From: Hybos culiciformis
Taxonomy: Eukaryota; Arthropoda; Insecta; Diptera; Hybotidae
DNA: 64,000 nt
NCBI GenBank assembly: GCA_964007475.1
Contig: OZ023273.1
Span: forward strand, 84,889,712-84,953,711
Direction: 5' to 3'
Below the pieces are notes generated by a model, which did not search any database, was not told where the DNA came from, and saw only the letters and a list, made by a program, of their open reading frames with translations. This document shows, piece after piece, positions 1,819-38,874 of this stretch (position 1 is the stretch's first letter; each line of letters starts with the position of its first letter). The position numbers and the translations under genes were made by a program.

Positions 1819-1849
<31 letters not shown>

Positions 1850-12570: not shown

Positions 12571-12691
12571 ATCCCAATATACCACGAGTCAGTTATTTGT
12601 CTAGTTCATTGGAAATAAAAAATATCATTTGTGAACTAACTTAGTATACTAATGATATGAACACGTTAGCCACAAGGATATATGTTTAGTA

Positions 12692-13639
12692 CACTAAAAA
12701 AAAAATGCAATCAAAATCGAAAGCAATTGTACTTCATTTCAATTTTTGTCCGTAATTGATACTTTTGAAGTCAAAATCTGTTGTTTTATTTGAAGACATC
12801 CTGAATGAAGTTCCAAAATGAAATACCAACTTTACAGACAATTTTAAGACTGAAAACCTGTCCTTATTTTAGGACTTCAAATATTTTCTTTCAAAACAAA
12901 AATTATTACTTCATTTGAATTGCAATTGATTTTATTTTACCTTGCATTAATGAAACTATGTTCTTCAAATTAATGTTTTTAGTTGCAATAAAATAAAATT
13001 AATAACTTTAGATTGAAATGAAGTAAGTCCTGTTTTATTTTCATTCATTTTATTATATTTTCCATTTTACACATTGTCGTAAATTCAGTTCATAGCTCAG
13101 TGGCAGAGTTGGTGGATTGCAATGTTTAGGACAGTGGTTCGAAGCTACAAGCGGGCATAAAAAAAAATTATTAAAAAAAATATAAAACAAAAATAAAAAA
13201 ATTTAAAAAATAATTAAAAAAATTTAATAAATAAAAAAAATTAAATAAAATAAAAAAAAATCAAAAAAAATTAATAAAAAAAAAAATAATAAAAAAAAAA
13301 AAAAAAAATTAAATAAAATAAATAAAAAATTAATAAAAAAATAAAAAAAATTAATAATTAAAAAAAAATTTAGTCTAGCAATTTTTTTTTTTGTATTTGC
13401 GGTGTTTTTGCTGATGAATTTGAAAGGTTTTTGGTTTTGGGGTAATAAACTTTGTTTTATTTTTACTTGAATTATTTTGTTTTCAATTCGAAAGATACTT
13501 GCTAATTTCTGATTTCGATTTTGAAATGAACTATCATTTGTTTTCAAATCGAATAATTCTCTGTAGGGACAATGCGAAGAAATCTCACTTTAAATTGAAG
13601 CAATTTTTTGTTGTTTTGATTGCATTATTTCTTTGAGTG
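12692..13639. mobile_element. 948-bp MITE (CACT-type ends, TA duplication)
   Basis: The left end CACTAAAAAAAAAATGCAAT and the inverted right end CACTCAAAGAAATAATGCAAT frame it, and TA lies on both sides (12690-12691, 13640-13641). The related element copy at 26100-26146 lacks the insertion and has a single TA at the same place, so the empty site is visible in this window. The arms repeat ACTTCATTT/AAATGAAGT words. The centre holds a tRNA-like module and a long A/T tract that gives meaningless ORFs. Confidence 0.85.
13090..13158 (+). repeat. tRNA-like module inside the MITE
   Basis: CATAGCTCAGTGGCAGAGTTGG is a good A-box region, and CAGTGGTTCGAAGCTACAAG is a B-box-like region about 45 bp downstream. 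The anticodon and acceptor arms do not form a clean cloverleaf. An A-rich tract follows (13160-13360), as in the module at 1743. Confidence 0.5.
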
Positions 13640-13917
13640 TAAGACATAGATCGTATATAGGTGACAAATAACTGACATTGCTAGTTATTTGTAACCGTAA
13701 ATTACGACTGAACGTTAGGTATGCGACAAGCATTAAGGTAAAGAATATAGCTGACGTAGCCGTTAGTTATGAAATTAACATATAAATCAGAATTGAAACT
13801 GTCTCCAAGATCAGTTATAAGGCTGACTATCAAGATAGTTGTAAGTCTTACTTAAATGTCAGTTATAGGACGGACATCGAAGGACAATTCTATGACTGCC
13901 GTCGATGCTAATTTTAA

Positions 13918-14205
13918 AACATACTTTAATGTAAGCTCACCGTTTTTGCCCTCCTAAAAGGAGGACCTATTCAGAATATTTTTAGTTTTTCGAAAATATC
14001 TCGAAAACGGTGCGTTTTCAGCGTTTTTGAAGTTGGCCACCCTACGATGACTGTAAATCCAACTTTTAATTACCGATTCAAAAAATGCTGAAAACACATC
14101 GTTTTCGAGATATTTACCGAAAAACTAAAAATATTCTGAATATGTCCTCCTTTTAGGAGGACAAAAATGGCGAGCTTACATTAAAGTATGTTTTAAAATT
14201 AACAT
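13918..14205. mobile_element. Long palindromic (hairpin) insertion
   Basis: ACATACTTTAATGTAAGCTC at the left is mirrored by GAGCTTACATTAAAGTATGT at the right. Nested arms include CTCCTAAAAGGAGGAC, ATATTTTTAGTTTTTCG and ATATCTCGAAAACG. The central loop is about 70 bp. A shortened copy with the loop largely deleted lies at 25655-25845 in the related element. Confidence 0.75.
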
Positions 14206-14345
14206 TAACATTAAAATGGTCAGCTCATTTAATGGTAACTTTGCTAAAGTAAAAAAAACTGTTGTAAAAAAAAAGGGCAAACATAAGAATCAGATACAGT
14301 TAATGTTGAAGTACTATTTATTATTTAACATGAAAATAATAAAAA

Positions 14346-15487
14346 CAAACAAATTAATGTGACAATGATATCATTGAAAAGCGTTGAAGGTACTTATACT
14401 TATTAATATTATTATAATAAAAATGTGTGGAAAAAATTCATAGAGATAAGTACTTCCAGAATAAAAATTTAAAATCTTTGAACTGATAATGTTCATTAAA
14501 TAAATTAATACCCATAATAAAATGAATTTTATTATGTGTTTTCATTAGTTAAAATATTCGAACGAAAATTTGACCATAAAAATTATATGCACTTTACATA
14601 ATATTGGATTTTAAGTAAATTTTAAAATTATAAAAATAAATATTTAAGTTTATCGCATGCCCCATTAGTAATATCTTTAATCGACTAAGTATGCAATGTG
14701 AGTGAAAAAATTGTTCGTTGACGTAAATCTTTGTTTCATATTCACTTAATACGAATAGTTAGGATCTTTATACTTGTATGTATATTATAAGAAAAGAATC
14801 AAAGGATTCTGGTACAACAAAATTGTTTTAAAAAGATATTACTAATACTATACAAATACTTATATTTTGCTTCTGTCTGTTTACAATTCCAGAAATACTT
14901 AGTATCACTCAAAAAATTTAATTCAATTTATGTATCTTTTTTAATACCCTTTGAATAAAAATTTAAAATGGAATTGAAGCAGCAGAAAAAAACGTAATGT
15001 CAATCATGAGATCAAATTTATAAAATGCAAATTGATCTTTTTGTTCGAGTGTAAAATTTACATTTCTCCAAAAATAAAAACAATGTCAACATACTTTCAT
15101 TACTTTTATCAGTTGTATTCTGTAATAAATACATAATTTTAATATTATCTGTTCTTATAACAATAATATTACGTAATAATTATATAAAATATAATAATAT
15201 TAATTATATAGTTTGTACTTTAACTACTTCAACATTTAGAATACAAATATATCACAAACGATAAATATTAATTAACAAAAATGTCAGGCTTACCTAGTTG
15301 CTATTAAATTATTTTTTAATTTAACTTGTTTAACAAATATTTTCTTTTCCTTATTAATATTAGCGTTAAAGCTAATACACCTCAAAGATCGTAAAATATT
15401 TTTAAAATTATAAATTTTATAGTAAAGAAAATTAAAAATGATACTTATATACTAATTCAATAACAAAAGCATCGAAATAATTTTAAA
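14346..15487. other. No gene or repeat recognised
   Basis: AT-rich spacer between the CCCAATATACCA element end and the large transposon. It has only short spurious frames. Confidence 0.5.
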
Positions 15488-16833
15488 TAGTAGATTACAA
15501 TACATTTTAAGAAAATTTGTTATTCTTGCGAGTTTTGTATACACACAAACACATAGACACGAGTCATGTTTATATCACGAGACCGAAGGTCGAGTGATAT
15601 AATATTGACGAGTGTCTATATGTTTGTGTGTATACAAAACGAGCTGTATAACAAATTTGATTAACATGTATTGTATACTGCTTTAATGTGCATGTGAGAG
15701 GGAGTTGAAAACAATACATTTATAATGAAAAAAATAAACAAAAAAGTTCAAAATGAAGCAAGGAAATAAAATTTAATAAGGAAGTTTATTTATTTATCGA
15801 AATGATTTCAAACCGGAAGATTCCTAAAATATTAAAAAAAAAATTAGTAATTTTTCCAAAAAAAAATTATTCATTTTCTTTTTTGCAAAAAAAAAAATCG
15901 AATAATTTTTTTTTAGAAAAATTACTAATTTTTTTTTTATTATTTTAGGAAATAATGGTCTTCTTAAATTTTACTTAATTTTATTTTTAATTATTAAAAA
16001 AAATAATAATAATTTTATAATTATTTTTTTTATAATTAAAAATAAAATCAAATAATAATTATATAATTATAATTTATATTTACAATAAATAATCTCCTTG
16101 ATGCTGCCATTTTCTTTGTTTGTTGATAGAAGAAAAAAAAATTCTTACTTGACATTTGACAATCACAGCAAACTTTATAATGACAACAAATATATTTTCA
16201 GGGTTACCATTGTTCTATTTTTATTCATTTTGTTTTTTTGAATAAAAATAAGTCCAATTTTTGAAGTGTGGTTTAAATTTTTGTACTAAAATCCAACCAC
16301 ACTCGTTTAAAAATTTAGTAGTAGAGGTTCGAAGATCCTTTAAAAATAGTAGATTGAAACACATGTTAAGAAAATTCATCGACTGATCGACTGGCCGCTT
16401 TTTAGAAAAAAAAAAAATAGCCGCGTATTTTTTTATTGGTTCTTTTTTTTTTTTTTGTTTGCTCAGAGGGAAAATATAGATTAGCTCAGAGGGAAAATTT
16501 AGATTTTAGCATTATAAACTAAGCTTTGATTGACATTGATATGATGCATGTGAGAGGTATACATTTGCAATTTTTTTTTTTTTTTGGTATTTGTCTGTAT
16601 TGAAATATTGTGAGTGTGAGTGATATTATTTTTGTTTATAGTATTACGCAGTTGAAAATGAAGAATGTAAATACAATATAGAGCAATGTAAATACAATTT
16701 ACATCACAGGGAAATGTAAATACAATTTACATTCCTCTATAATTGCATGTGTATTGATGCATGTAATGGACCATTTACCGAGCTAAATTTGCGAATGTAA
16801 ATACAACTTACCGAAGACATGCGCATTAAAATA
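15488..16833 (+). repeat. Left long TIR of the large transposon
   Basis: It comprises an outer near-perfect hairpin of about 200 bp around TATCACGAGACCGAAGGTCGAG, then TTTAATGTGCATG, two nested AT-rich palindromes (15850-16080), and an inner array of TGTAAATACAATTTACAT words. It ends at ATGCGCATTAAAA. Inverted or direct relatives are at 34315-35662, 40223-41562, 39326-39990 and 46308-46845. Confidence 0.8.
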
Positions 16834-17319
16834 TTTTTCATTTGAATTTTAGCTTTTGTCAATTTTACATTTATATATCAATCTTCTAAAAATTCAATAC
16901 AATTCCATGAACTTGATTCAATATCTACATAGCAGTAGTAAATTTATTCTTTTATTTTTATGTATAAAGGATAAATATACTTTCAAATAATTTTTCTCGA
17001 ATTAAATTCTACAAACTGCTTTAAGAAAAATATATATTAAAAGCAAATTTGCTAAAAATAGCAGCAATAATAATATTTAACGTTATTGAAATAATAGAAA
17101 TTTTTTCAGTTTTTTTCTGAATTACAGTCAATAAGATTAATGTAAAATTATGCGAAAATTCTTTATTTTTAAAGGCTTATTTAGCACATTCACATTTACC
17201 GGAATTGGTACATTTTCTTCATATTTTAAATAATTTATAAATAATATGAAAAAATTGCGAAAAAAAAAATTTAATATATATTAAAAATAAAATATTAAAA
17301 ATTGTACAAAAAAAAGAAT

Positions 17320-17780
17320 TGTAGGGGATGACTATCAACTACTAATAATACTTTTCTTTGGCTTTGATTAAAAAGACGATTGATTTTTATATATAATAAA
17401 GCCTTTTTATTTAATTTTCTTCTATAATTTTCTCTTTTAATTGATAAGAAAGCATAGGATTTTATTTATTAAATTTTATAGATTTTTATCTTAGTACCAC
17501 CAAGGACCATTAAATTGTAATGTTCACAAAGCGGATGCCAAGACAATTCTGATTTTAATTTGAAAAATATTCTATATTTATACTCTCAAAATTTTGTGGT
17601 TTAATCGAGCAACACTACAATTGTCGTGTTGCGAGAAGTTTCATAAAATTTTATGCTTTCGTCCTTTTAATTACATATCAAATATATCGAATTATATTTC
17701 AAATAAATGTATAAAGTCAAATTCAAATTTTAAATAACATAAAAATAATAATATTATAAAATGGGTTGTTGTTTGCTACA
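17320..17780 (-). repeat. 3' LTR of the gypsy element
   Basis: 461 bp, nearly identical to the 458-bp LTR at 29455-29912. The few visible differences include a short indel (GATTTTAATTTG versus TTTTAATTTG), consistent with fairly recent integration. On the element's own strand a purine-rich tract, CAGAGGGGGAGAA (rc of 17781-17793), directly precedes it, as expected for a polypurine primer. Confidence 0.93.
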
Positions 17781-17798: not shown

Positions 17799-19270
17799 TT
17801 ACTGTCGACCCGACGATGCAGCAGGACTACTAGGTTTCTTTGGGCGACCTCGCTTTCTTATAGGTTTAACTGGTGGTGGTAACTCGTTAGCTGAACCAAT
17901 GTATGGTGTTAAGGCGGATGAATGATAAGAGCCGAGTGGAGTATCAAGATCACTGTTATTTGCAACGACATATGTGGAAGAACCCTTTTGTTGAATTATT
18001 GCGTAAGGTCCATCTCGTTTTGGAACAAATTTTGACGTAACACCCTTTTCTGCATTACTTAATACATGCGAAGTTACCAAAACTTGATCACCAACTTCAA
18101 AATTTGGATGTGGACGTCGATTTTTATCCACATATGCTTTATTTTTATCTTGGATGGCTTCAGATGTTTCTCTAACTGTATCCATAATGTTTGCAAAATT
18201 TTTTAGAAATGGAGTTATTTGTGGAAGCCAATTCTCTGAATGAAAATTTGCTTTTAAGTCGTGTTCGATATCATCAGCTGTGCGTAATTCCCTACCAAAT
18301 GTTAGGTATGTGGCAGTATAGCCAGTGCTGTCGCATTTTGCGGATTTCATCGCGAATCTGATAGATGGAAGATATTGAGACCATGTTGTATGCTTATCTG
18401 CTATTTTTTCTTTCTATAGGATTTGCTTCGGGATGATATTTTGGTGTGAAAACTGGTTTTATTCCCAAACAATAAACTAGTTGTTGCATAATTGCCGATA
18501 CAAACTGGGTGCCATTGTCGCTAATTAATCTTCTCGGAAGACCATAGCGTAGAAACACTTCATGAAATAACGTCAAAGCGCAGGCTTCAGCTGTGGCTTC
18601 TGTTAACGGAAAAATTTCCACCCAGCGGCTTGCGATATCTTCAATTATAAAAATCCATTGATAGTTTTGAGAAGTTACTGGCAGTGGACCAAATAAACCT
18701 ATAGCCACAACTTCAAAACGCTGATTACTGGCAACAGTTTGTAATAGACCAGCAGGTTTCATGTTGGATGCTTTACATCGTTGGCATTCAACACATTTCT
18801 TTACGTAGTTTGCGATGTCTGCTCTAATACCTGGCCAAAAATATCGATTAACGATACGTGTTGTTGTACGGTCAATTCCATAATGACCAGATGCTGGATC
18901 ATTGTGGTAAAATTTTAAAATTTTTGGACGTTTATTTTTTGGAATTACTAGTTGACCGTCTTCTGAATCTGCGTCGGGTGTATACCGATATAAAACACCT
19001 TCAGTAATTAGATAACCTCTGGAAGTCCAACGTCTGACGTTTTCATCATTATTTTCGAATGAATTTATAATTTCTTTTAATTCATTATCTTTTAATTGTT
19101 CCTCACGAACCTGATTCGGACCTTTCCGGGGAAAATCAACCGAAACGTTGCAAATGCTGCATTCACTATTGCTATTTTTATGAAGACTTTCTTGTAAACA
19201 TGGCGGTCTTGAAAGAAAATCTGCAACATAATTTGCTTTACCCTGAATGTAACTAATTTTAATATTGAAT
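17799..19270 (-). pseudogene. Gypsy integrase region of pol, defective
   Basis: Two frames (18394-19270 and 17799-18350) form the end of RNase H/tether, the zinc-binding HHCC region (HYGID..., CVECQRCK) and the DDE core (ISDNGTQF with the second Asp; the Glu follows further on in YHPEANPIERKN). They continue to a C-terminal domain ending in Pro/Lys-rich residues. The first catalytic Asp is replaced by Gly (AIGLFGPLP, near 18700), and an A-rich run near 18405 shifts the frame. The upstream part of pol lies across the inserted element at 26250. Confidence 0.9.
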
Positions 19271-19930
19271 CCCAATATACCATCGCGCCAGTTCGCAAAG
19301 AAATGTCAAGTATTTGTACTGGCATGGGCGTCGATTACTGAACAGGCCTACAAGTTCACTCATAGTTAACATATTTTTGGCACACCGGCTTAAAATATGC
19401 CTCCGACTTGTTTGTTAGTTTTGAAACTAACCTGAACACCAATAAACAGGAGTTTGTCCCGGCCGCCAGTTTTAAGGTCAGCTGAAAAGACCAATTTAAA
19501 TTACCGACTTTTGTGTCGGATATTGAACTATATTCTAAGTCGAAACAAATATTTGACCTTGCAGTCTATCTTATTTTTGAGTGTAAGCGACTAATTACGG
19601 TAATCTTTCCCTTCAAACGGTTACTGGTTGTACATAAATGTCAGTTTACGTAAAGCTGAGAGCAGCGTGAGTTATTTTTGTACAAATAACTACTATAAAT
19701 TGCTTTATTTATGTTGGTAATTCAAAGAAAATTGAAAGGCGTACATAAGCGCCAGTTTACGTAAAGCTGACAACAGCGTCAATTATTTGTTGCTTTGTTG
19801 ACTTTGTTGATAAGTTGACATTTATAATTTATTATATTTTGAAAAACAAGCACGTGATGGAAAAAATTTAAATAACAATAAAATAAAATAAATAAAAAAT
19901 AACAAAAAAGGTAAGTTTATTTTTTTTTAT

Positions 19931-20215
19931 TTATATTTTATTTAATTTGTTTTTAGATAAACAGTAAGAGCCGTCTTTTGAAGAATTTCCGGGAATTCGT
20001 TGTTTGGGGAGGTCGGCGTGCGTAACTACAGTTTCCTTGAACCCCTCAGAATGGGCTGAAACTTGGAGGGGGGGTAGAGGCGGTGCCCAAACTCCCAAAA
20101 CTGCAATCAGTTCTTGGGGCAAAGGCCCCGTTTCGGAGATAGGGCCCCCAAAGTTTTCTGGTAACACCGCCAGAATTATTTGTTATTGTTTGCCGCTGCA
20201 AGGAAAAGGAAAATA
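19931..20215. repeat. GC-richer unclassified repeat inside the JAK-bearing element
   Basis: A block of markedly higher GC with CCTCAGAATGGGCTGAAACT and several G-runs. It is open on both strands for 70-78 codons, but no protein is recognised. It resembles the stretch at 11330-11665 in style and may be another interspersed repeat. Confidence 0.3.
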
Positions 20216-20523
20216 ATTTGACAATATGTTTATTTTCAAAAAATAAAAGAAAAAAAAATAAAAATAAAAAATTAAAATTTCGATAAAAGTGTTATAAGAA
20301 AAAACAAATTTTAAAATTGATTGAAATTAAATGTGAAAAAAGTTGATTTTTGAAACGAAAGTTAAAAAAATTTATTTTTTTTTTCAGAAAAATAAGAAAA
20401 TCGAAAAAAATTGACGTAAAAAAAAAAAAAGAAAAAAAAAACAAAAAATGTTTATAATTTTATTTTAACAATACAAATAAGAAAGTTAGAATTAAAAGAA
20501 AATTAGAAAGTTAGAATTAAAAG

Positions 20524-23500
20524 AATTTAAAATTCACGGACCAATAGGAGGCGATTTTTCATATTCAAAAATTCGGCAATGCGAAAAAGAATATGATACT
20601 TATTATATAGACATTAATACGCGTGAAAATCAAACTGAAACATTTAAAATAAGTAGAGAATGTAAAAAATGGAATTTATTTATGCAGGAATGTATAAGAC
20701 CATTTGATAAATTGACTGATTTAGCGTTAAGTATTGAAACTACTTCAGAACAAAAATTTCGAATACCACCATCAGAATATGGTAAATGATTTTTATTTAT
20801 TTATTAATTTCAAATTATATTTATTTCAATAATTTTCATGTTACCCAATGTTTTTTATATTATTTTTTTTGGTGATAAAAATGATGTTTTAAATATATTT
20901 TGGTTCGAAGTGTTTTCATGACTAAACATTTTTAAAATAACTTTACTGCTCCTATTCATTGTTTTTGTTATAAAATCAGTCAACTATATTTTTATATTTA
21001 ATATTATATTTGCTGTTACGTACTTTGATTTTTATTGTTAGCAATTTATTTTATTATATTTTTAATTAGCAACAATTTCTTTCATATCACAGATAAACCA
21101 CCTTTGCTTCTGATATGCCTGCCTAAAAATCAAGTAACTGTAAAAAAGACTGTAGATGAAACATCTGAAGCTGGATTGCAAAAACGTCCTACTCAAATAA
21201 TTGATCCTAAAACTGATCTATTATGGTACAAAAGTAAGAGAAATGTGTTTTTTTCTTTGTATTTATTATTAATAAATAATGTTTTGTTTTTTAAGATTCC
21301 TACAAAGACTGTGATGGAGGTTTAATACCAATAAAAGCTGAATGGATTTTGCCTGGTGATATGCATAAAATAGTAACTTTAAAAGTTTTGAAATCAGAAA
21401 AATACGTTCCAGTAAGTAAAATCGTGAACTCTTTATAATCCTATATAATTTTTTTAAAATATATTTGTAATTTGATTTTAGGATTTTTTTAAATTAGCAA
21501 ATGTATGGTCGAAAACGAATTCTCCTGAATTTTTAAAGTTGTATGGAATTACTTTACAAACACCACACACAATGGTTATGGAATACTCCAAATATGGTCC
21601 GCTGAATGAATTTCTTTTGAAAGAGAAAACAAATGTATCACTTTTATGCTTATTAGAGGCAGTTCACAATTTAGTTAGAGCCATTGTTTACATGGTAGCT
21701 TATTTTTTAAATTCAAAATTAAATGAAGTGTGTAAAGAAATAATTAAATTTTAGCAAGAACATAAAATTATTCATGGTTTCATTCGATGCTCAACATTAC
21801 AAGTAGTTAAGTATGATGGTAAAAAGATTGTTGCAAAATTATCTGATCCAGGGTTTCCAAAAGCTACAGAGCAGAAGAGTAAGTTTACTTCAATAAATTA
21901 AGGGATTAACTAAATAAATATGTTGAAAATAATCTAAGTAAATTTAAAAAGGGTTTAAAGTTGTTAAAACATGAAAACTTGAAAAGGAAATTTTATTTAT
22001 TATCTTCTAATTTTATTTTTGTTTTATTTTATTAATTTATTAACAGTACAACATTAACAGTTTGCTTTGTAAATAGTTTTATTGCAGTTACTTATTATTT
22101 TTTTGTTATTCTTCAAAATTATCTACCTACATATATTTGCCAGAGCTTCCTTTATTTCTAATTTCCAATTGCAATTCATTAAACATTTCTAATCCAATAA
22201 AAATTCAAAAAAATATTTTTAGTCTTCCTTGGATACCTTTCGAATATCATCAAAGAATGGAGTTAGCGAAAGCAGATCCCTGTGCTGAGTTCTGGGCTTT
22301 TTCCACCACTGTGTGGGAGATTTTCGCTCGTGGCAAACCAATTGAGAATCTTAAAGCTGATGTTCTGAGGCAAAATTACAAATTTTATGGTGGTATCTTA
22401 CCAGAACCAGATGAAGTCGATTTCCCTGAAGAAATTTATCCTATAATACTTGATGGATGGAGTTCTGATCCTGAAAAACGTTTCAATCAACAATTCATAT
22501 TTTCAAGATTAGCATCAATAACAGAATCAAGTTTACCTAATTATTCAGACGTCGGAGCAGCTTCGTCTCATGCAACTGAGTTAACATCATTGCCGTCAGG
22601 TTCGTTACGTTCAAACAGTAGTTCTGGCATTACTGATCATACTACATTGAATGGAGGTACATGTTGCGGAAGTGCTGCTGGAAGTGATCCAGGCAGCATT
22701 AACTCATTTTCAGAAAATTCATTTTATTATGACAAAGCTCCGTTATTACACCAAAGACAACAACGAAATCGTTATAACTCTCACAATGGATCATTACTAC
22801 ACAATTCAATATTTTATCCAGAAAGTTATTTTGAAGAAACTCCCTCCGTAGTTCAATTATCCGATTCTAAAGTTATTTATAAAGAAAAAATTGGTGAAGG
22901 ACATTATGGAACTGTTTTTCGTGGTGAACTTCATTTCAGAGGTGAACGCAGAGAGCCTAAACAAGTTGCTATAAAAACATTAAAAAGTTGTTTCGATCAT
23001 AAAGCACTTAATCAAGATTTTATGAGAGAAATTCAAATAATGAAGGTACTCATAACTAACAATTTTAATTTTTTTTTTCAAATAATGAATTATTATTTTG
23101 TTAATTTCAGTCACTTAATCATCCGAACATCGTAAAAATTCTACGTTGGATAGAGAAACCACAAATATCTATAATTATGGAATATGTTGAATGCGGATCT
23201 TTTATTATCTACTTATCGTCTAAGCCAAATTTAACTAATGAAAAACTTCTAAGATTCGCTATTGAAATAGCAAGTGTAAGTTCAATTTCATTACTATACA
23301 ATATAAGTTCTTTAAAAGTTTTACAACTAATCCTGTTCAATGATTCTTTAAATTTTAAAGTAGGTTTTTTTATCTTCTTCATTCAAACTTCCGTTAAAAA
23401 AAGATAAGGGATTATAAATTTGGTTTAAAATTGAAAATTTTTGGATTCAACTGTTTCAATTTAAATTTAATCAATTGGTATTTAAACTTAAATATGATTT

Positions 23501-24270
23501 AAAAAAAAGTAAAACAAACCAAATCAGGGCAAAAATTATGTATCGTACATTAAATTATTAATATAATTTTTTAAGCTATTAAAATTTAAAATTAATTTTT
23601 AATTAAAGGGTATGGATTATTTGCGAAGTAAGAATGTCATTCATAGAGATTTAGCAGCAAGGAATATTTTAGTTGATAGTGAATGCGTAAAAATATCGGA
23701 TTTCGGGTTGGCACAAATTGCTGATTCAGATGGTTATTATTTTGTTAAAAGTGACCGAGAAATTCCGATAAAATGGTAAAAAAAAAATTGTTTTTCTTTG
23801 TTCGACAATTGTATTTTTTTTGTTTAACAGGTATGCACCCGAAACAATTAAGACCAATAAATTTAGCTTCCAATCTGACGTGTGGTCATACGGTGTTACT
23901 TTATTTGAAATGTTTTCTCGAGGACAACAGCCAAATTTAGATCAAACTAAAGATCTTAATCAAACTGAAATTTTAGATCGATTAGAAAATGGTGACAGGT
24001 AAACAGGAATTAAAGAAATATGTTTTTGAAATATTTGATGTGTGAATATTGATCAAATAATTTTCTTCAAATTGCAGACTTGGTTATTATTGTCCCAGGA
24101 ATTGTAATCCTGCATATTTTTACTTAAAATTGATATCAAATGGTTTGAATGGAGATTGTACAAAATTTGCTGATATTATAAAAAATAATTTCCAACAAGA
24201 GATAGACACAAGAACTATTGAATGGCAACAATTGGAAAGTGATAGTTTGAATCAAATTTATGCTATGTAA
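20524..24270 (+). CDS. hop: N-terminally truncated Janus kinase (hopscotch-like), ten exons
   Basis: Exons 20524-20781, 21093-21233, 21296-21411, 21482-21694, 21755-21878, 22144-23045, 23111-23275, 23609-23775, 23831-23998 and 24078-24270 have GT/AG borders and join in one frame to a TAA. Together they encode about 814 residues. Exon 1 is SH2-like ([16 protein letters not shown]). Exons 2-6 encode the JH2 pseudokinase (IIHGF in place of HRD, SDPGF in place of [11 protein letters not shown]). Exon 6, after a Ser/Asn-rich linker, starts JH1 with [12 protein letters not shown] and VAIK. Later exons have [18 protein letters not shown], the tandem activation-loop Tyr pair (DGYYFVK), YAPE and a normal C-terminus. 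All visible catalytic residues are present. The FERM domain that binds cytokine receptors is missing, and there is no evident start. The fifth junction needs the acceptor at 22142-22143, which adds about 23 unusual residues. JAKs act in JAK-STAT signalling at the membrane; whether this copy is expressed is unknown. Confidence 0.85.
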
Positions 24271-24554
24271 GTTGAAACGTTAAAGTAATAGGTATAAGAA
24301 CAATTCACTAAGGTAAACATTTATATAAACCAGTATAAACGCACCAGAATGTAAATGTTAATACTATATTAAAACACTATACAGCTGTATAAGAATGATT
24401 TTAATAGCTTGCTTTTCAGAAAATGGTTTATAAAAATGTTAACAACTATAGGTGTCTATCAGATAAATTTAAGTCCTCATTGAATAATCAAAAATTTAAA
24501 AAAAATATTTTTGTGTATACTTGTACGTAGGTAATAATATGATTTACATTTCAG

Positions 24555-24906
24555 TCGAAAAATATCATGGTTTTATCAAGTGATATTATTAATATCGAGA
24601 TCAGCTGTAGAAAGTCGTCGAAATTTCAAAAAAGAATTTACAGCATTTGGAATATTCATGATAACGTCAGTAACTTTAGCTGTAATGTATTCAACAGTAA
24701 TGGGTTTCAATCAAGTGACAGTTCAAGATATTGCTGGATCATTTTTTATGATATCAACAGAATTGATATTTACAGCCTCATATACAAATTGCTATATTTT
24801 TTCTGATTTGCTGCCTATATTGAGACGTGAAACTGGTGAAGGAAATTATAAATTGTCAGCTTATTATGTTGCTATCATATCAACACGGAACAAAATTTTT
24901 CTTTAA
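24555..24906 (+). pseudogene. ABCG (white/scarlet-type) transporter exon fragment
   Basis: After a good acceptor (TTTCAG) one frame reads WFYQVILLISRSAVESRR, then a membrane segment (FGIFMITSVTLAVMYSTVMG), an AGSFFMISTELIF segment, and FSDLLPILRRETGEGNYKLS AYYVA. This is the start of the ABC2-type membrane domain of ABCG half-transporters (pattern: W-RS--E-RR, GS-FF, LP-L-RE---G-Y---AY). The frame ends at a TAA shortly after the AYY motif, with no further ABCG exon. It follows the JAK stop by 285 bp in the same orientation, so it looks like a second captured gene piece. Confidence 0.75.
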
Positions 24907-25654
24907 GTAAAAATTTTTTTATTAAGTGTTTTTATTTAACTTTTTATCTTAACATGAGTTTAGAAAAAAAAATGGAACATTATAGTAGATATGTAGGTAT
25001 TTTCAATTCAGGACTCAAATGTCATCATATTATTCAATTAAATAGTAAATATTTTGAATAAATTAGAGCTCGATATAAAAGATTCAGAGTTATTGACCCT
25101 CGAATAAATTATAAACTTGTTAATATGCTTTTAACTAACAAACTGAACTACATTAACCTACATTAATAACTACATCTTAGAATGACTTAATTATCTTTGA
25201 CGACGCCGACGTTGCACGATTTATTTATTTTAACTTTAATGAACAAGTCAGTTGATAGAGTATGTAATAATGTATTATTAAGTTTCCATTATAAGGTTAT
25301 AAGGTTTAAAGATCATTTCCCTTTAATTTTTTATCAATCAGTAAAAATAAATATGCGTACATGCACTTACTTGTGTTATTAAAAGACAAATTTTTTTTGA
25401 AAATTGGGAGCAAAATAATTGCTAATCCATTTTATTTAATTTACGATACTTGTTAATTGTAACTTTAATTTTTATAAGAGAATTTATGTTAATTTGTTTG
25501 TTTTTATTATTTCTATGTTAAATAATAAATAGTAATTCAACATTAACTGTATCTAATTCTTATTTTTGCAATTTTGGTTACAACAGTTTTTTTTTTTAGC
25601 AAAGTTACCATTAAATGAGCTGACCATTCTGTTAATTGATATTAATGTTAATTG

Positions 25655-25845
25655 TAAAATATACTTTAATGTAAGCTCACCATTTTTGTCCTCCTAAAAG
25701 GAAGGCTTATTCAGAATATTTTTAGTTTTTCGCAAATATCTCGAAAACGATGCGTAAAAAACGCGCTGTTTTCGAGATATTTAAGAGATATTTAAGAGGA
25801 CAAAAATGGTCAGCTTACATTAAAGTATGTTTTACAATTAACATC
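25655..25845. mobile_element. Shortened copy of the palindromic insertion
   Basis: ATATACTTTAATGTAAGCTCACC...TCTCGAAAACG matches the left arm of the hairpin at 13918-14205. The right arm is collapsed (AGAGATATTTAAGAGGACAAAAATGG). It sits at the equivalent place in the related CCCAATATACCA element, so it predates the separation of the two copies. Confidence 0.7.
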
Positions 25846-26249
25846 GACGGCAGTCATAGAATTGTCCTTCGATGTCCATCATATAAATAACATTTAAGTA
25901 AGATTTACAACTAGCTTAGTAGTCAGCCTGATAACTGATCCTGGAGACAGTTTTAATTCTGACTTATATGTTAGTTTCATAACTAACGGCTACGTCAGCT
26001 ATATTCTTTACATTAATGCTTGTCGTATACCTAACGTTCAGTCGTAATTTACGGTTACAAATAACTAGCTCGAAGGCACTTGATGTATGGGCAATGTCAG
26101 TTATTTGTCACCTATATACGATCCATGTCGTACTTTTTATATATCCTTGTGGCTAACGTGTTCATATCATTAGTATACTAAGTTAGTTAACAAATGATGT
26201 TTTTTATTTCCGATGAACTAGACAAATAACTGACTCGTGGTATATTGGG

Positions 26250-27619
26250 AATGGTTGCAACAGTAACGCCCACCGAGCAAGTCGACCCGTAGGTGATTTC
26301 AATGTCATTAACCATTTTAACGGCTGATGATCAGTCAAAATTGTGATATCTCCTCCTTCAATATAACCACGAAACTTATTGATGACCCAAACAATTACTA
26401 ATGCTTCACGTTCAGTAGTGGAATAATTACGCTCTGCGTCATTTAACAGTCTGCTGGCATATTCTATTGGATGCTCGTTATCTTTCTCCCCCTGCAGCAA
26501 AACTCCCCGTATTGCATAGCCACTTGCATCAGTTTTAATTATAAATGGTTGATCTTCACGAGCCTGTTGCAAAACTGGAGCAGAAATTAGCAGTTTTTTT
26601 AGAAGTTCGAAAGCATTGGTTTGTTCTTCAGTCCATGACCATTTAACGCCTTTTTTAAGCAGGTTACTCAAAGGTTTGGAAATGTTGGCGTAATTTGGTA
26701 TAAAACGACGATACCATGATGTTGTTTGTAAGAATGACATAAGTTGTTTCACATTTGTTGGAGCTGGTCGATTCGAAATTGCCGCAGTTTTTTCAGCGTC
26801 GACGTGAATACCATCAGTACTTAAGATATGTCCGAAAAATTTTACCTTAGGACAGCAAAATTTACATTTTTCTCTTTTTACCTTAAGTGAAAACTTACGA
26901 AATTGACCAAAAACTTTTTCTAAATCTTGAATGTGTTTTTCAAAAGTTTCCGAACAAATGATTATATCATCAATATATGCCAAAATACATACGTCGGGGA
27001 ATATTGATGATGACTTAAATCGATCAATTAGACGTTGAAAGGTAGCCGGAGCATTACGCAATCCAAATGGCATTCGATTATAGCGGTACATTCCGAAGGG
27101 TGTAATGAATGCTGTCTTATCTAAGTCGTTTTTATCAATTTCTATATGGTAGTATCCCGTTTGCAAGTCAAGCGTTGACATGTAACGTGTGCTTTTTGCC
27201 TCGTGCAGTAAATCATCAATCCTGGGTAATGGGTATCGATCAGGAATGGTGATGGAATTTAGAAGTCGATAATCAATACATACTCTAACATTACCATCTT
27301 TTTTGGGTACGACCACCACTGGAGCTGCTCAAGCACTTTCGCATTCCTCTATAACATTTAATTTTAGCATCTTCTGTAAATCTATTTTCAGTTGATTTCT
27401 TATTAAAGGTGATAATCGATAGGGAGTGGTTGCGATAGGCTCATGTTCTTCTGTTTTGATTTTATGAACAGCGTAAGATGTTGGTGTAGTAATTTCATCA
27501 AAGATGTCTTTATGGTTTTTCAACATTGCATTTAGTTCATTCTTTTGTAATAAATTGATACCATTGCCTTCATCTTCATGTAAAATAATATCGAGTGCAA
27601 AAAAATCTACAGAAAACAA
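26250..27619 (-). pseudogene. Gypsy reverse transcriptase and RNase H region of pol
   Basis: Frames 27329-27619 and 27319-26250 are continuous except for one TGA codon (near 27330) at ECESA*AAPVVVV. Reverse transcriptase motifs are visible: VPKKDG, DYRLLN, LDLQTGYYHI, FGLRNAP and the catalytic AYIDDI. RNase H follows (KTDASGYA, TTEREALV, LTDHQPL). The frame is cut at LLQPF by the nested TIR element; its continuation is at 19270 downward. Confidence 0.93.
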
Positions 27620-29454: not shown

Positions 29455-29912
29455 TGTAGGGGATGACTATCTTCAACTACTAATAATACTTTTCTTTGGC
29501 TTTGATTAAAAAGACGATTGATTTTTATATATAATAAAGCCTTTTTATTTAATTTTCTTCTATGATTTTCTCTTTTAATTGATAAGAAAGCATAGGATTT
29601 TATTTATTAAATTTTATAGATTTTTATCTTAGTACCACCAAGGACCATTAAATTGTAATGTTCACAAAGCGGATGCCAAGACAATTTTAATTTGAAAAGT
29701 ATTCTATATTTATACTCTCAAAATTTTGTGGTTTAATCGAGCAACACTACAATTGTCGTGTTGCGAGAAGTTTCATAAAATTTTATGCTTTCGTCCTTTA
29801 AATTACATTTCAAATATATCGAATTATATTTCAAATAAATGTATAAAGTCAAATTCAAATTTTAAATAACATAAAAATAATAATATTATAAAATGGGTTG
29901 TTGTTTGCTACA
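29455..29912 (-). repeat. 5' LTR of the gypsy element
   Basis: 458 bp, pair of 17320-17780, starting TGTAGGGG and ending GCTACA. GAAT follows directly (29913-29916). Confidence 0.93.
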
Positions 29913-31955: not shown

Positions 31956-33962
31956 TTAAAAACTGTCAGTGCAGTTTTCCGAATTATTAAACATTGTTAG
32001 CGGAAAAAATGTTTTAGTTGAAGACACATAACTATCAGACATGGCAAAAAGCTTACAGTATAATTCTGAAATCTTCAATTTTTGCGTATTAGATGATAAG
32101 TTCTTTGTTTGAGATATATTAATTTTTGAAGATTGGAGGGGATATATATAAAAATTAGTTTTTTCAAAATATTGTTTGCATATCATATATACTACTTTAT
32201 TTTCTTTAATAAAATATAGAATCTCAAATATTCGATAATCCTTAGTTAAGACATATTTATTTTTATCGTCATTGGTTAATTTATAACCATGAAAACACAT
32301 TTTCTGTGTCCTTAATTTTACTATATAATTTGATATTTGAATAAGTTTTATCATTTGTTTCACTGACAGATAAAGAGTTGTTAATCTCATGCAATCTGTT
32401 TGAAAATTCGACTAAAGGGCTTTTATGACCTGCTAATAACTTTTTAAAGGGGTTCATATACGATTCAAAAGAAAAAGCTGAAAAAGAATCCAATGACCCT
32501 TTAAAATTCAAGACCTCTTTAGGCAGATGAATCAGCATATGAACGTTATGATTCACACTATGTGAACCGTACAAAATTGCATATTGCTTAACAAAGTCCT
32601 TCAATAAATCTGCAGAAAGCGAATTGTATTTGAAACACATTTCAGGATTGCAAAGTATTTTTATAGCTACATGTAACATTAAGAAATGATCATAGTATTT
32701 GTTCAAATGACTGGGTAAGGATTTAAGAACGAATGGACCATAATACAATAAAAAGGTTCTAAGCTCTGTTCCTTTGTACACCGAAAAGTGGTCTAACGAC
32801 CGAAAGTTGTTAGGTTTGAATTGGTTTAAATAAAGCATTTTAGAAGAAACTAAATTTTTGACTTGGTTTACAAACAATGGTTTTTTACCAAACCAAATTT
32901 TAAGGAGTTTTTTCATAACTCCCAAAAGGACAATATGTAAGTAATCCAATGCAATTTGAGAAACCATTCCAACATTTAATTGTTCTATGGGAGAATCAAA
33001 TAAATGAAATTCCGCGTCTTCTCTAAACAAAAAACTACTATCCGTTCGCAAAGAAGCTTTCTGGTCATTGTAACTCATTTTATGGTGAGTCTTACTAAAA
33101 GTTCCTCTAATAGTACATTTAGGACAACTTATATACGCGTTATAATGTTTTGTACCACACATACATGCTCTTGCTGATTCATCACATATTATGGCTCGGA
33201 TATTAATGGATTACTTAGTTTTATTAATTTCTAGTTCATTTTGAATTTGTTTCATTTCAGTAATAAACGGATTTAAAAATTTGGAAAAGTCTTGTGGTTT
33301 TTTATTGCCATGGTATATCCCTATGACAAAAACGGAATTTTTTGTTATATTTAGAAGTCGACCCAAGATTAACCAAAATGAGTGTCCGTGTTATCATGGA
33401 ATATAGGCAATCCATCTACATTAACAACAATATACAAAATTTGAGGATCTAAATCAATGACTGAAATAATACGTCTTAAGTTATTGGCTAAACCAATATG
33501 TATGTATTCTCCGACACATAAAAGTATTTTGTCTACTTTTCGAGGAGTTTGTAAAAGACTCCTAAAATATGCACGGAGATCAGGACTTTTCAATTTTAAA
33601 AACTTCAAAAGTTCAGAAATTACGTTTTTTTTAATATTATGCTTAACTGACCACTGCTGCAAGAAAGAATGTAAGTCAAGCTCTTGAATTGATAAAGATT
33701 CATCAGGGATGGAAATGTTACAATTTATCATTTCTGTAATTTGAGGTTGCACATGCTGAAAGCATTCATTATCTTCAGATGCTTTTGGAAAGAAACTAAA
33801 TGAATTTATTGGATCAAGATATATTGCATTCGAATTTTCCGTACAAATTGGGATTTCAATTTTTTTTTTGTCTTGATGTTTGAACTTATATTTTAAATTA
33901 TTAATATATTTTTTTCTTGTTTTCGAACAGTGTATAAGGGAATAACTCATTTTAAATTTCAT
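31956..33962 (-). pseudogene. Transposase of the long-TIR element, broken
   Basis: Successive frames 33962-33369, about 33368-33230, 33220-32281 and 32390-31956 read as one protein when frame changes are ignored. Visible motifs are ILYIVVNVDGLPIF, the following WLILGRLL...FVIGIYHG, ICDESARACMCG with CPKCTIRG, ALDYLHIVLLGVMKKLLKIW, GTELRTFLLYYGPFVLK and SLDSFSAFSFESYM. This order (VDG, then C..C finger-like, then LDY-H-V-LGVMK) is that of large insect transposase-like proteins related to the tnp2/EnSpm group. Defects are a frameshift at THFG/FWLILG (about 33370), a TAA before SINIRAIICDE (about 33215) and a frameshift at about 32290. It is non-functional as assembled. Confidence 0.65.
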
Positions 33963-34314
33963 GGTTTCTAAAAATATTGATTATGTAAACTTTTAAATTA
34001 AAAAAAATCGCGACAAATATTTAAAAAAAATTTAAAAAATATTTAAAAAAAAAAGCTTTATTGGATGTTGTTTCCGGCAATATTTTCTAAAAAAAAATAA
34101 GAAGTTTTAATATGTATTTAAGAAACACTTAAGAAATTAGTTACATTCTAACTGTATGATGAACAACAGAAAACTAACTACAGCCACCAAGACTGAACTG
34201 AATAAATTGAATAATAAATTAAATTAACTGGAGTCATTTATTTAACTGGAGAAATTTATTGCCTCAATATTTGTTGTTGTCAAGAAATTAATTAAGTAAG
34301 TTGTGACTTAAAAG

Positions 34315-35662
34315 ATTTTAATGCGCATGTCTTCGGTAAGTTGTATTTACATTCGCAAATTTAGCTCGGTAAATGGTCCATTACATGCATCAATACACAT
34401 GCAATTATAGAGGAATGTAAATTGTATTTACATTTCCCTGTGATGTAAATTGTATTTACATTGCTCTATATTGTATTTACATTCTTCATTTTGAACTGCG
34501 TAATACTATAAACAAAAATAATATCACTCACACTCACAATATTTCAATACAGACAAATACAAAAAAAAAAAAAAAATTGCAAATGTATACCTCTCACATG
34601 CATCATATCAATGTCAAACAAAGCTTAGTTTATAATGCTAAAATCTAAATTTTCCCTCTGAGCTAATCTATATTTTCCCTCTGAGCAAACAAAAAAAAAA
34701 AAAAGAACCAATAAAAAAATACGCGGCTATTTTTTTTTTTTCTAAAAAGCGGCCAGTCGATCAGTCGATGAATTTTCTTAGCATGTGTTTCAATCTACTA
34801 TTTTTAAAGGATCTTCGAACCTCTACTACATAAATTTTTAAACGAGTGTGGTCGGATTTTAGTACACAAATTTAAACCACACTTCAAAAATTGCACTTAT
34901 TTTTATTAAAAAAAAAACAAAATGAATAAAAATAGAACAATGGTAACCCTGAAAATATCTTTGTTGTCATTATAAAGTTTGCTGTGATTGTCAAATGTCA
35001 AGTAAGAATTTTTTTTTCTTTTATCAACAAACGAGGAAAATGGCAGCAACAAGGAGATTATTTATTGTAAATATAAATTATAATTATATAATTATTATTT
35101 GATTTTATTTTTAATTATAAAAAAAATAATTATAAAATTATTATTATTTTTTTTAATAATTAAAAATAAAATTAAATAAAATTTAAGAAGACCATTAGTT
35201 CCTAAAATAATAAAAAAAAAATTAGTAATTTTTCTAAAAAAAAATTATTCGATTTTTTTTTTTGCAAAAAAGAAAATGAATAATTTTTTTTTGGAAAAAT
35301 TACTAATTTTTTTTTTAATATTTTAGGAATCTTCCGGTTTGAAATCATTTCGATAAATAAATAAACTTCCTTATTAAATTTTATTTCCTTGCTTCATTTT
35401 GAACTTTTTTGTTTATTTTTTTCATTATAAATGTTTTGTTTTCAACTCCCTCTCACATGCACATTAAAGCAGTATACAATACATGTTAATCAAATTTGTT
35501 ATACAGCTCGTTTTGTATACACACAAACATATAGACACTCGTCAATATTATATCACTCGACCTTCGGTCTCGTGATATAAACATGACTCGTGTCTATGTG
35601 TTTGTGTGTATACAAAACTCGCAAGAATAACAAATTTTCTTAACATGTATTGTAATCTACTA
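34315..35662 (-). repeat. Right long TIR of the large transposon
   Basis: Inverse of 15488-16833, with only scattered differences seen (for example AAGACATG/GCATGTCTT and ACAACG/ACAAAG type changes). From 34323 onward it is also the start of the 4.55-kb block repeated directly at 40223. Confidence 0.85.
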
Positions 35663-36214
35663 TTACGTTATTATGTTAATCTAACTAATGTTAATACGAA
35701 ATTATCAATTTTACAATCGTTTTCTATTTTTCTTGCTTTCAAATTTACAAGCCAACTGTTGTTCTAGTCTTGCAGTCTATGAGACCGAAAATTTTTGATA
35801 AAACTAGAATCAAATTGTCATACTTTTCATTGCGTATTCAGTATATTTACAGCCAAATGTAATGCCATATTCTGCAGCTAAAAATAACAACACTATATAA
35901 ATAGACGATGGTAATTTATAGCAAATATTAATATTTCTAATAGAAATTTAATGCATGAAAAGATTTTTGATTATACTGAGAATATTTTTTTAACTATTCT
36001 AATAAACCCTTCCTTATTTATAATTAATTATCTTCGTTTTCGTATTTCTAAAAATTTAGAAATAAACACTTTATTACGGATATGTCCACTTTATTTTACA
36101 CAAAATTATGTGAAAAATTTTTTGGTATCAAATGAATAATATAGGAATTTTTCAGTTTTTAACACCATCATAACATGATAACATCATGCCTTAAAAATAC
36201 CATAAGGATTTTAA

Positions 36215-37355
36215 AATTATAATTTTATTTCAAAGATTACTTAATAACTTCCTTAAATTTACAATTCTTGCGAAATTTGTATTTATGGCCGTAAATCTTT
36301 TATATGGGTGAAAAAAACTATTTAATAAAATTCTTTGTAAAATTATTAAGTGTTAAAATGGGAGCGAGCCTCTTTGCAAATTCCATATTGCAAAAGTCTA
36401 TTTGGCCGAAAGCCACTTATCAAATTTGTATGTTTCGCAAATCTCCATTTCGCAAAAAAAACTCTTTAACAAAATTCCATTTGGCCTAATGCGACACTTC
36501 GCAAAAAGATATTTCTCAAAATACCAATTCACAACATTATATTAATTGAGACACTTCGCAAAAGTATAGTTTAACAAATTTTTTTTTACTGCACAAATAT
36601 GATGAATAGAATATTAAAGGTTTTTTTTAACTGTAAAAAAAAAAGCTTGTAGGATTTTATAGGCTCATGGATGAAATCCGAAAAGAAATATTGTACGTAT
36701 GTAACGACTGAAATAAAAAAATTTGAAATGGGTGGGCCACCAGCAGTAAAAAAAAACAAAATATTACTTAAAAGATAAAAAAATTTAAAATATTTTGAAA
36801 AGAAAAGACGATTATAGGGAAGTCAAACTATTATTTTTGATTGCCGAGAATTTAAAATTGAAATAATTTTTTTAAATAAAAATATTAATTTTCTAATATG
36901 TCCATACTGGTTATGTACGTATTGAATATTAAAAAAATATATATTAAGTTTTAATTTTTTAATATTATTTCTTATATTTACAAACTGGATTTGTATTAAC
37001 TTAAAAAAACAGATATTAAAAATTCAATAAAATTTCTTAAAATTAAAATGCATATAATTGGAATTGTTTAATTTATTAATATGCATTTATGATAATGCAA
37101 CATATTTTAGTGAATGCTAAATATACATTTCGCAACTACCCTTTTTGGCGTAATTCACATTTCGCATTTCGCGCGAAATGTGAATTACGCCAAAAAGGGT
37201 AGTTGCGAAATGTATATTTTGCCAAAAGTAGTAGTTGCGAAATGTCCTTATTCTAACTGGAAAGTTGTTAACTGTCTCATTAGGCTAAAGCGAACGTTTG
37301 TTTTTTGCCAAATGGAATTAGGCAAAATGTCTTCTTGCGAAATGTCATGCGAAAA
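36215..37355. repeat. TTCGCAAA / TTGCGAAATG keyword array with a perfect palindrome
   Basis: Words such as TTCGCAAA, TTTGGCC and TTGCGAAATG recur at irregular intervals. At about 37125-37217, 44-bp arms (ACATTTCGCAACTACCCTTT... and its exact inverse) surround a five-base loop. A second copy is at 42115-43255 in the duplicated block. Short frames across it are by-products. Element ends were not identified. Confidence 0.6.
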
Positions 37356-38874
37356 ATCATGCTTAATAGCTTTATTTAGAAATTCGTCTGAAATAAATAT
37401 TAATTCAACTGAATTGATACTTTCGAAAGGACCATCATCGTCATTGTCATCATCTTCATTGATTGCATAAATGTCATTTAAATTATTTGTAGATTTTGAA
37501 GTACAAACATATTGAGGTGGTGCAAAAATGTTTCGAGTTAAATCGTTTTCATCAAAATTTTCTAGAAAATTATTTGGCAAAATAATATGCAAAGATTTGG
37601 AAATTTCTGCGTTCCGCCGAAGTTTTTTCATTAAATTCTTTTTGCGTTTAATTTGTTGATGATTACCCCCAATTTTAACATGTTTATTATCTAAGGATTT
37701 ATGTCTAAATTCTTAAGAGACTATAAGAACTTTTTGATGTTTATTTGATAAATTATAATCAAATGTTGGTGAATTTTGTTGCAATATTCCATCTGAAGAT
37801 TTTGAATTTAACAATTTTACAGTCGATGACAAATTGGAACTACTTTGAGTTCCTCGAGATATTTTGGATTTACAACATAATAATGGATTAATAGGAGTTG
37901 ATGAAGTGCTTACGAACTGTTGGTTTGAGGACGTGGATGAAGCAGTAGTGCTTGTAGTGGCACCAACTTCATATTTACTGTGAATTAGACATAAATCAGC
38001 ACAATTATTACAATCTTTAATCGAATGAAATGAATCTGTAGCTGGTTCATTCAAACTTTTGAGAGCTAATGGTTTGGACGCTGTACATTTTGCGAATGTT
38101 ATAGAATTTCCAGCAATATTATTTGCTACTTGAGACGAATTCATTAAATTTTCTACATTATCTAAAATAAGTAAATGTAAAAAGTTAGTTCAAAATAAAC
38201 AATACACATCTTAAATATTTCTAAAATAAACTACCTGAGTTGGGAAGTGAATTCACAAATATTTGAAACTAGCATTTCATCGTTTTTATCTGAGTCAACA
38301 AGTTTAATAGCTATATTTTGTTTCATATTTTGATGTTGTGGCAGCTCAATTTCTGCTATTTTGTTATTGAAGATTTATTTTTGTTCATTGTTTCGGTTAA
38401 GCTTGAATTGTTCCGATAATGATTCTTGTATACATTTTTTAATTTTTTCGTTATATTTGCCAAATGAACGTAATATGGTCTGTATTGTAGATGTTGAATT
38501 TGGAGATTCTACTACCCGTGTTCCTTCATTCGAGTTATATACTAATTCGTCAAGAAGTACATTCTTGCAATCATTACATGTTTTTAATTTTAACAGAATT
38601 TCGATAAAATTTTTTGAAAAACATTGACTACAAGAAGATTTCTTAGAATTTGCTATTGAATTAATTGGAAAAGTTATTTTTGTACAAGAACTTGGATCAT
38701 TATGATGAAGTGGTGGTGGGGGTGGTGGGGGTAATAAATTTGAGACCGAGGATGAACCATCTGATGATACTGAATGCCGTTTTAATAATAATGATGAACT
38801 GTTATTTTGAAGATTTGTTGCTTTGAATTTGTTAATTTTATTATTGCCTGGTGTTTTTTAACGCTTTTACAATA
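37248..38874 (-). pseudogene. Degenerate unrecognised gene, copy 1 (5' truncated)
   Basis: An exon from the block border to 38235 (donor CTCAG|GTAGTT) and one from 38161 down to 37248 share one frame, interrupted by TAA at about 38375 and at 37713-37715. The protein is Ser/Asn-rich with a Pro run (SNLLPPPPPPPLHH) and paired Cys motifs (CSQC, CNDC, CNNC) that could bind zinc. It continues into KKLRRNAEISKS, an acidic tract (NEDDDNDDDG) and a tail made partly from the keyword array. I recognise no family. The same stops in both copies mean that decay preceded duplication. Confidence 0.5.

Follow-up and report, generated by a model that had tools for sequence, protein, structure and literature searches.

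A probable stepwise-built Pack-TIR transposon with hopscotch (JAK) and brown cargo, nested in a gypsy element of the fly Hybos culiciformis

The shuffling of gene fragments by transposons is a familiar process in plants and one seldom described in animals, and most work on gene capture by TIR elements concerns plants. Helitrons have neither TIRs nor target duplications. In rice, more than 3,000 Pack-MULEs are reported, with pieces drawn from over 1,000 genes (PMC13317346), and the accounts of plant Pack-TYPE elements and of the rice Pack-MULEs (PMC13317346, PMC8903248) describe many host-gene fragments and the formation of chimeras, as in the fly family presented here, although plant Pack-TYPE elements operate on a larger scale. 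Insect Helitrons are also described as capturing gene fragments, like the present family (PMC4067079, PMC6544945), which, unlike them, has TIRs and a target duplication. In animals, a survey of Pack-TIRs (Tan et al., 2021; PMC8277862) counts 370 cases in 100 genomes, four of them multicopy and none from birds or from insect reference genomes. The text of the same survey refers to Ssk-FB4 of Drosophila melanogaster populations, a multicopy Pack element with a host gene, termed Pack-MULE, which has TIRs of about 700 bp and duplications of 9–10 bp, against the perfect 12-bp TIRs, the 3-bp duplications and the many cargoes of the present family (PMC8277862).

As the survey characterizes them (PMC8277862), animal Pack-TIRs are similar to the element described here in their TIR ends, the host DNA inside, a parent located elsewhere, microhomology at the breakpoints and the proposal of gap filling. 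Unlike the surveyed cases, the present family is found in a fly and has several multicopy cargoes, and the present element has a kilobase-sized, intron-bearing cargo that would derive from a two-step capture of two genes. This element, 6,979 bp in length, is located at 19271–26249 of a 64-kb window, i.e., the whole stretch of 64,000 nucleotides that was analysed. A sequence-only reading of the window had claimed precise ends and an AAT duplication, and both are found in the sequence, within the gypsy element that hosts them:

19268–19270: AAT target-site duplication, left copy
19271–19282, forward strand: left TIR, CCCAATATACCA, 12 bp, the same sequence in all 10 elements read end to end
26238–26249, reverse strand: right TIR, TGGTATATTGGG, 12 bp
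26250–26252: AAT target-site duplication, right copy
17320–17780, reverse strand: gypsy LTR, 3' in element orientation
18394–19270, reverse strand: gypsy pol beyond the insertion, integrase-like by eye
26253–27328, reverse strand: gypsy pol, reverse transcriptase and RNase H part
29455–29912, reverse strand: gypsy LTR, 5' in element orientation

The window contains three exact copies of the TIR 12-mer, one of which, at 12573, is the end of an older relative; with up to two mismatches there are nine matches, compared with a mean of 4.54 after shuffling, and at least nine were obtained in 7 of 100 shuffles. At that tolerance the 12-mer by itself is not beyond chance; what identifies the element is its pair of exact ends, together with the duplication, the restored pol frame and the further copies in the genome. 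As for the frame, gypsy pol had been said to rejoin once the segment is removed: about 65 bases from each flank, when joined, form an open frame, and the frame arithmetic of the ORFs concurs. The two gypsy LTRs diverge at 4 of 455 positions, and GAAT is found outside both. An Rfam scan of the window gave no matches, and two transposase-like ORFs (32284–33210 and 33372–33980) had no Pfam match above the cut-off.

Two host genes contributed to the cargo: hopscotch, the fly JAK, which is a signalling kinase, and brown, an eye-pigment gene. The hopscotch part has the following features:

20510–24041, forward strand: captured hopscotch genomic segment, copy of G000:C1:135221684-135225248
20574–20575: point at which 36 bp of the native SH2 region are lacking, without change of frame
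21859: position of a single-base loss within an A run, JAK exon 5; the frameshift leads to a stop in exon 6
22223–23045, 23111–23275, 23609–23775 and 23831–23998, forward strand: JAK exons 6–9, coding for the end of JH2 and for JH1 without its last exon

The genome search for a full-length JAK gene proposed in the sequence-only reading revealed a complete native hopscotch with FERM exons 50 Mb away, which rules out that the window holds the native JAK locus broken by assembly. The segment opens within a coding exon at the FERM/SH2 border, of which only the end is present; eight complete exons follow with their introns, and the copy stops 43 bp into the next intron. Introns included, it differs from the native gene by 12 substitutions in 3,528 sites (99.66% identity), and the native introns that it retains bear out the proposal of a capture as genomic DNA. 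The same reading had listed ten JAK exons from an SH2-like region to the stop: the exons are indeed JAK exons with introns, but they are nine, the first one partial, and the JAK stop is not reached. In fact, the TAA at 24268–24270 is ruled out as the JAK stop, the preceding exon being brown and the true last exon lying at the native gene. JH2 and JH1, described as intact, are not so: exon 5 is frameshifted, SH2 has lost 36 bp and there is no last kinase exon, and these three defects make the suggested alteration of JAK-STAT signalling unlikely. A weak alternative donor for the phase mismatch between exons 5 and 6 was also ruled out; its cause is the 1-bp deletion relative to the native gene, which sits in a run of A and is known from one assembly.

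The place of the last JAK kinase exon is occupied by the last two exons of the element, which belong to brown (ABCG transporter) and not to JAK. The junctions and the surrounding transposon parts are as follows:

19271–20487, forward strand: transposon left part, 98.2% identity to a brown-carrying sister element
20475–20525: 25-bp tandem duplication at the 5' capture junction, with GTT common to element and hopscotch at the switch
23999–24077, forward strand: hybrid intron, of hopscotch origin for 43 bp and of brown origin for 36 bp, with an ATGT microhomology at the join
24078–24266, forward strand: brown exon
24555–24875, forward strand: brown exon encoding the start of the membrane domain; similarity to native brown breaks off mid-exon and the frame continues to a stop ending at 24906
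25208–26249, forward strand: transposon right part, of which at least the last 753 bp are common to the other 19 right-end loci and 1,042 bp are shared with the closest two

The phase at the hybrid intron matches, so that exons 6–9 and brown share one reading frame, and after splicing 620 residues can be read without interruption from exon 6 to 24906. Both observations would suit an expressed gene whose kinase part is in frame with the membrane segments of brown and perhaps acts on JAK-STAT, but we regard this as very unlikely: the 5' capture edge falls mid-exon, the upstream frameshift brings a stop in exon 6, the end of JH1 is missing, and the five exon substitutions (3 silent and 2 changing), together with the two deletions, show no constraint. 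Because no captured promoter or start is recognised, and because of the frameshift and of the missing final kinase exon, the hopscotch–brown DNA is most likely a gene cargo without protein function; an RNA effect, through sense or antisense fragments, would be more likely than a working kinase.

The element belongs to a family that is widespread in the same genome. Each of the two family ends gave at least 40 matches at 97–100% identity, these being the best 40 of 161 and 147 candidates, respectively, and at least the first 677 bp of the element are common to each of the other 29 left-end loci examined. Host-gene pieces were found in nearly all the sampled relatives, the cargoes including pieces of a Wee1-like kinase, MED28, Pellino, IDH3, DGK and cpa, while the native parents located, among the family cargoes, are those of hopscotch and brown only. 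The Wee1-like fragment has 21 genomic copies, 18 of which are tied to family ends. Furthermore, 3-bp duplications flank 10 of the 10 elements read between both ends, i.e., nine others and the element at 19271–26249 (AAT, AAT, TAT, TAT, ATA, ATA, ATA, TAC, TAA and AGA).

These duplications narrow the choice of superfamily. MULE, hAT and P elements have 8–10-bp duplications, those of MULEs thus being longer than the 3-bp ones found here, and the three groups are ruled against by the ten elements; Tc1/mariner, with its TA duplication, is ruled against by the varied sequence and the 3-bp length. PIF/Harbinger elements have a 3-bp TWA duplication, a rule that fits one of the ten. A genome search with DDE_Tnp_4 gave at least 152 matches (150 scored of 403 candidates). 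Among the matches listed, 87 are on C1–C3 and C499, and the nearest of these lies 34.6 kb from one of the 76 family ends compared; the four other contigs with family ends have no DDE_Tnp_4 among the matches listed. Harbinger is not favoured, given the duplication sequences and the lack of DDE_Tnp_4 near the listed ends among the matches listed. CACTA/CMC elements have 2–3-bp duplications and CACTA or CACTG termini; the length agrees with that of the family, and the termini (CCCAA) do not. No transposase domain was detected in the 28 ORFs scanned inside elements (3 + 10 + 10 + 5), nor any Pfam match in four ORFs of an 11.8-kb element carrying cpa, and no autonomous member was encountered among the elements read. 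The family would be mobilised in trans by a transposase.

A likely order of cargo assembly can be read from the sister element (C1:77.44 Mb, 7.5 Mb away), which contains the same brown piece and both outer parts without hopscotch; the hopscotch segment replaces its bases 1215–7878, i.e., most of its inside. The sister suggests that JAK entered an older Pack-brown element. Because about 3.4 kb of inserted DNA interrupts the sister's brown part, this element does not show exactly what the recipient of JAK looked like. By divergence from the native genes, the brown cargo is older than the hopscotch cargo: the brown DNA of the sister differs from native brown at 20 of 942 and 18 of 505 positions, and that of the 19271–26249 element at 19 of 838, against 12 of 3,528 for hopscotch. 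Between the two elements there are 15 differences in 1,212 positions on the left, 19 in 2,125 on the right and only 3 in 835 within brown, a value close to that of the hopscotch cargo (0.34%). The interval between the divergence of the two elements and the acquisition of JAK is therefore too fine for these counts; likewise, the divergences of the LTRs, outer parts, brown and hopscotch do not order every step. An assembly artefact joining hopscotch, brown and gypsy might be suspected in a single assembly without reads; it is extremely unlikely, as the window lies within a 152-Mb contig, the sister repeats the structure from brown to the right end, the hopscotch copy carries differences that set it apart from the native gene and all ten elements read have 3-bp duplications.

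With TIRs, a target duplication, host-gene cargo and parents of both genes elsewhere without element ends (four stretches at the native genes had no TIR or backbone match), the Pack-type assignment of the sequence-only reading stands, and we consider it very probable that 19271–26249 is a Pack-TIR, with copied host-gene DNA inside a TIR transposon, built stepwise. The short homologies at the two junctions, GTT and ATGT, point to repair by gap filling. A double-strand break inside the Pack-brown element would have been filled by synthesis switching to the hopscotch gene, as in the gap filling proposed for animal Pack-TIRs, perhaps at the present gypsy locus. The earlier proposal of a capture followed by a move into gypsy keeps its first half, the genomic capture; the order is questioned by the earlier capture of brown and by hopscotch exon 6, whose matches in the genome are only in this element and the native gene. 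Hopscotch capture in situ, after insertion into gypsy, fits about as well. That hopscotch was captured elsewhere, for instance through fork stalling and transposition, and that the finished JAK–brown element then transposed into gypsy is quite possible, if short of an even chance: the perfect ends and the target duplication agree with it, the Wee1-like cargo spread to 21 places after capture, and, with 3 differences in 835 between the sisters' brown parts, JAK need not postdate the last move, whereas no second JAK-bearing element is known. The donor gene, the pre-capture sister and the end product are all present in one genome and can be aligned base for base, which makes gap filling and transposition testable against each other.

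Taken as a whole, the elements form a prolific Pack-TIR family, hosted by a brachyceran fly. The family is probably the animal counterpart of the rice Pack-MULEs, one whose members typically carry gene pieces and in which repeated gap-filling captures would have recombined pieces and introns of at least nine host genes at no fewer than 40 sites in a short time; if this is true, and if some chimeras are transcribed, an engine of exon shuffling would be at work in an insect. The family is also a trap for annotation, as near-identical cargo exons could pass as extra JAK, Wee1 and IDH3 genes.

Further cargoes were given provisional names. A DPP8/9-like assignment comes from two Pfam matches, both below the cut-off, and MFSD8 was named by eye, the MFS_1 match of the tool being below the cut-off; CD36-like, ABHD17, RSBN1 and Wee1, the last reported by the tool as protein kinase, are names given by eye only.

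The main finding is a young, prolific and serially capturing family of Pack-TIRs, TIR transposons with copied host-gene DNA inside, in the fly Hybos culiciformis, to which the JAK-bearing element of the window belongs. The ends of this element were used as queries in the genome (342 Mb in 509 contigs, the window being bases 84889712-84953711 of a contig of 152 Mb), yielding at least 40 matches at 99–100% for the right end (405 bases; 40 scored of 161 candidates) and at least 40 at 97–100% for the left end (590 bases; 40 scored of 147 candidates). By their coordinates, the scored matches form 15 pairs and leave 25 ends of each side without a partner, implying a minimum of 40 and a maximum of 65 elements among them. 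The part shared with the window element measures 753–1,042 bp in each of 19 other fetched right-end loci and at least 677 bp in each of 29 other fetched left-end loci, and the interiors of the fetched loci sort into groups of differing content. Ten elements, the window's included, were read end to end (5,876–11,828 bp) and all show 3-bp duplications, in nine cases other than TWA; an eleventh (IDH3) was read from its left end only.

The family carries pieces of many host genes. Domains above the Pfam cut-off are protein kinase (labelled Wee1-like by eye), Med28, Pellino RING and FHA, isocitrate dehydrogenase, diacylglycerol kinase, actin-capping alpha and fibronectin III, while major facilitator and dipeptidyl peptidase pieces fall below it; with hopscotch and brown, nine captured genes have firm and eleven have any tool support. 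Two cargoes above the cut-off combine two genes: one joins hopscotch to brown, the other fn3 to diacylglycerol kinase (DGK).

Contents of the 30 left-end loci, assigned by sequence group and ORFs, group membership resting on the read member of each group
Wee1-like: 8
IDH3: 6
MFS transporter: 5
MED28: 4
Pellino: 2
One each: JAK-brown, DPP-brown, cpa, fn3-DGK, unknown

The Wee1-like fragment occurs at about 100% identity in 21 places, on the three contigs C1, C2 and C3 and on small contigs, and 18 of these stand at constant distances from family ends in the list; the native gene may be among the other three. Native parents were located for two cargoes, hopscotch and brown. Towards their right ends, the cpa, MFS, IDH3 and fn3 elements (loci L064, L065, L067 and L068) have in common internal stretches a few hundred bases long, which would fit later captures being joined onto shared older cargo. 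Beyond the fn3-DGK element, about 1 kb from its right end, there is a short-chain dehydrogenase ORF (L067:4795-5403), so some family copies lie near host genes. No transposase domain was detected in 28 ORFs scanned inside family elements, and among the matches listed and compared no Harbinger transposase lies less than 34 kb from a listed family end.

Tan et al. (2021; PMC8277862) report 370 Pack-TIRs across 100 animal genomes, none of them in birds and insects, and four multicopy animal cases. Open-licence searches for insect Pack-TIRs from 2021 on found nothing beyond this paper, which does not imply absence from print; those for captured gene fragments in Diptera or insect transduplication returned Helitron, genome, fungal or plant work.

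The ends, AAT duplication and coordinates that the sequence-only reading had given to the window element proved right on checking. Gypsy reverse transcriptase and RNase H lie on one flank of the insertion and the remaining pol on the other, and the pol frame is continuous when the short flanks are joined; the two LTRs differ by four substitutions in 455 aligned sites. The features concerned are:

17320-17780 and 29455-29912: gypsy LTRs around the element, GAAT outside both
20510-24041: hopscotch cargo, copy of C1:135221684-135225248
C2:15091306: native brown, residues 123-648 within the fetched stretch
C1:77443790-77453823, minus strand: sister element of 10,034 bp, ends as in the window element, AGA duplication

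The closest proteins to the JAK of the element are brachyceran hopscotch proteins, one unnamed with 65% identity and that of Condylostylus longicornis with 59%. As a genome query, its exon 6 found two places, the window and C1:135223441, the latter being the native hopscotch gene. The native gene (C1:135220474-135225405), FERM included, aligns with a related protein from residue 7 to the last residue, 1091, through to the last exon, and its translated part is open as far as the stop. The cargo differs from it by 12 substitutions in 3,528 aligned sites (0.34%) and four indels; seven substitutions are intronic (1,343 intron bases) and the five in exons comprise three silent and two amino-acid changes. 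The copy starts partway through a coding exon and stops after the first 43 bases of the intron preceding the last exon. The view that JH2 and JH1 are intact fails for this copy, because the SH2 region is short by 36 bp, a 1-base loss in exon 5 causes a frameshift with a stop in exon 6, and the last kinase exon is absent, as are the FERM exons. The window JAK is a damaged passenger and not a new signalling gene.

The exon previously taken as the final one of JAK departs from the aligned JAK proteins and belongs to brown: with the next exon it matches C. longicornis protein brown at 64% over 98% of 172 residues, the two corresponding to brown residues 303-484. The sister element carries brown residues 173-484, interrupted by about 3.4 kb of inserted sequence, and also exons whose weak match to dipeptidyl peptidase 8/9 stays under the Pfam cut-off. 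Gypsy-type RNase H sequence adjoins it (L029:6630-6998), as with the window element. Apart from the JAK segment, the two elements match each other, over 19271-20487 (at 98.2%) and also over 24038-26249, and the segment occupies the place of sister bases 1215-7878. Element and hopscotch have GTT in common at the left junction, where it lies inside a 25-bp tandem duplication, and ATGT is common to both sides of the right junction. Gap filling with microhomology is argued for in PMC8277862.

The right junction is intronic in both genes, giving a 79-bp hybrid intron with matching phases, so that kinase exons 6-9 and brown share a single open frame (620 residues, stop ending at 24906). Since such in-frame joining is expected by chance about one time in three and damage lies upstream, we do not take this frame as a sign of function. 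Divergence from the native genes (2.1–3.6% for the brown cargo vs. 0.34% for hopscotch) indicates that brown was captured first and JAK afterwards. Between the two brown elements the difference is 1.24% in the left part, 0.89% in the right part and just 0.36% (3/835) within brown, values compatible with JAK capture either earlier or later than the last move. All these divergences could be skewed by gene conversion.

An older sequence related to the right end of the element occupies 12573-14357 in reverse orientation (pieces 87–97% identical), with AAT also preceding its end and no second end in the window at up to two mismatches; it is split by an insertion of about 954 bp (12684-13637) whose ends appear inverted by eye. 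Three minus-strand ORFs at 31956-33980 look CACTA-type transposase-like by eye, a Pfam scan of two of them giving nothing above cut-off. A C2H2 zinc-finger ORF is found at 5393-6505. Finally, 34309-38874 and 40209-44774 form a 4.57-kb direct duplication with 99.9% identity, ORFs included, of which a 1.35-kb part recurs inverted at 15486-16837 (98.4%).
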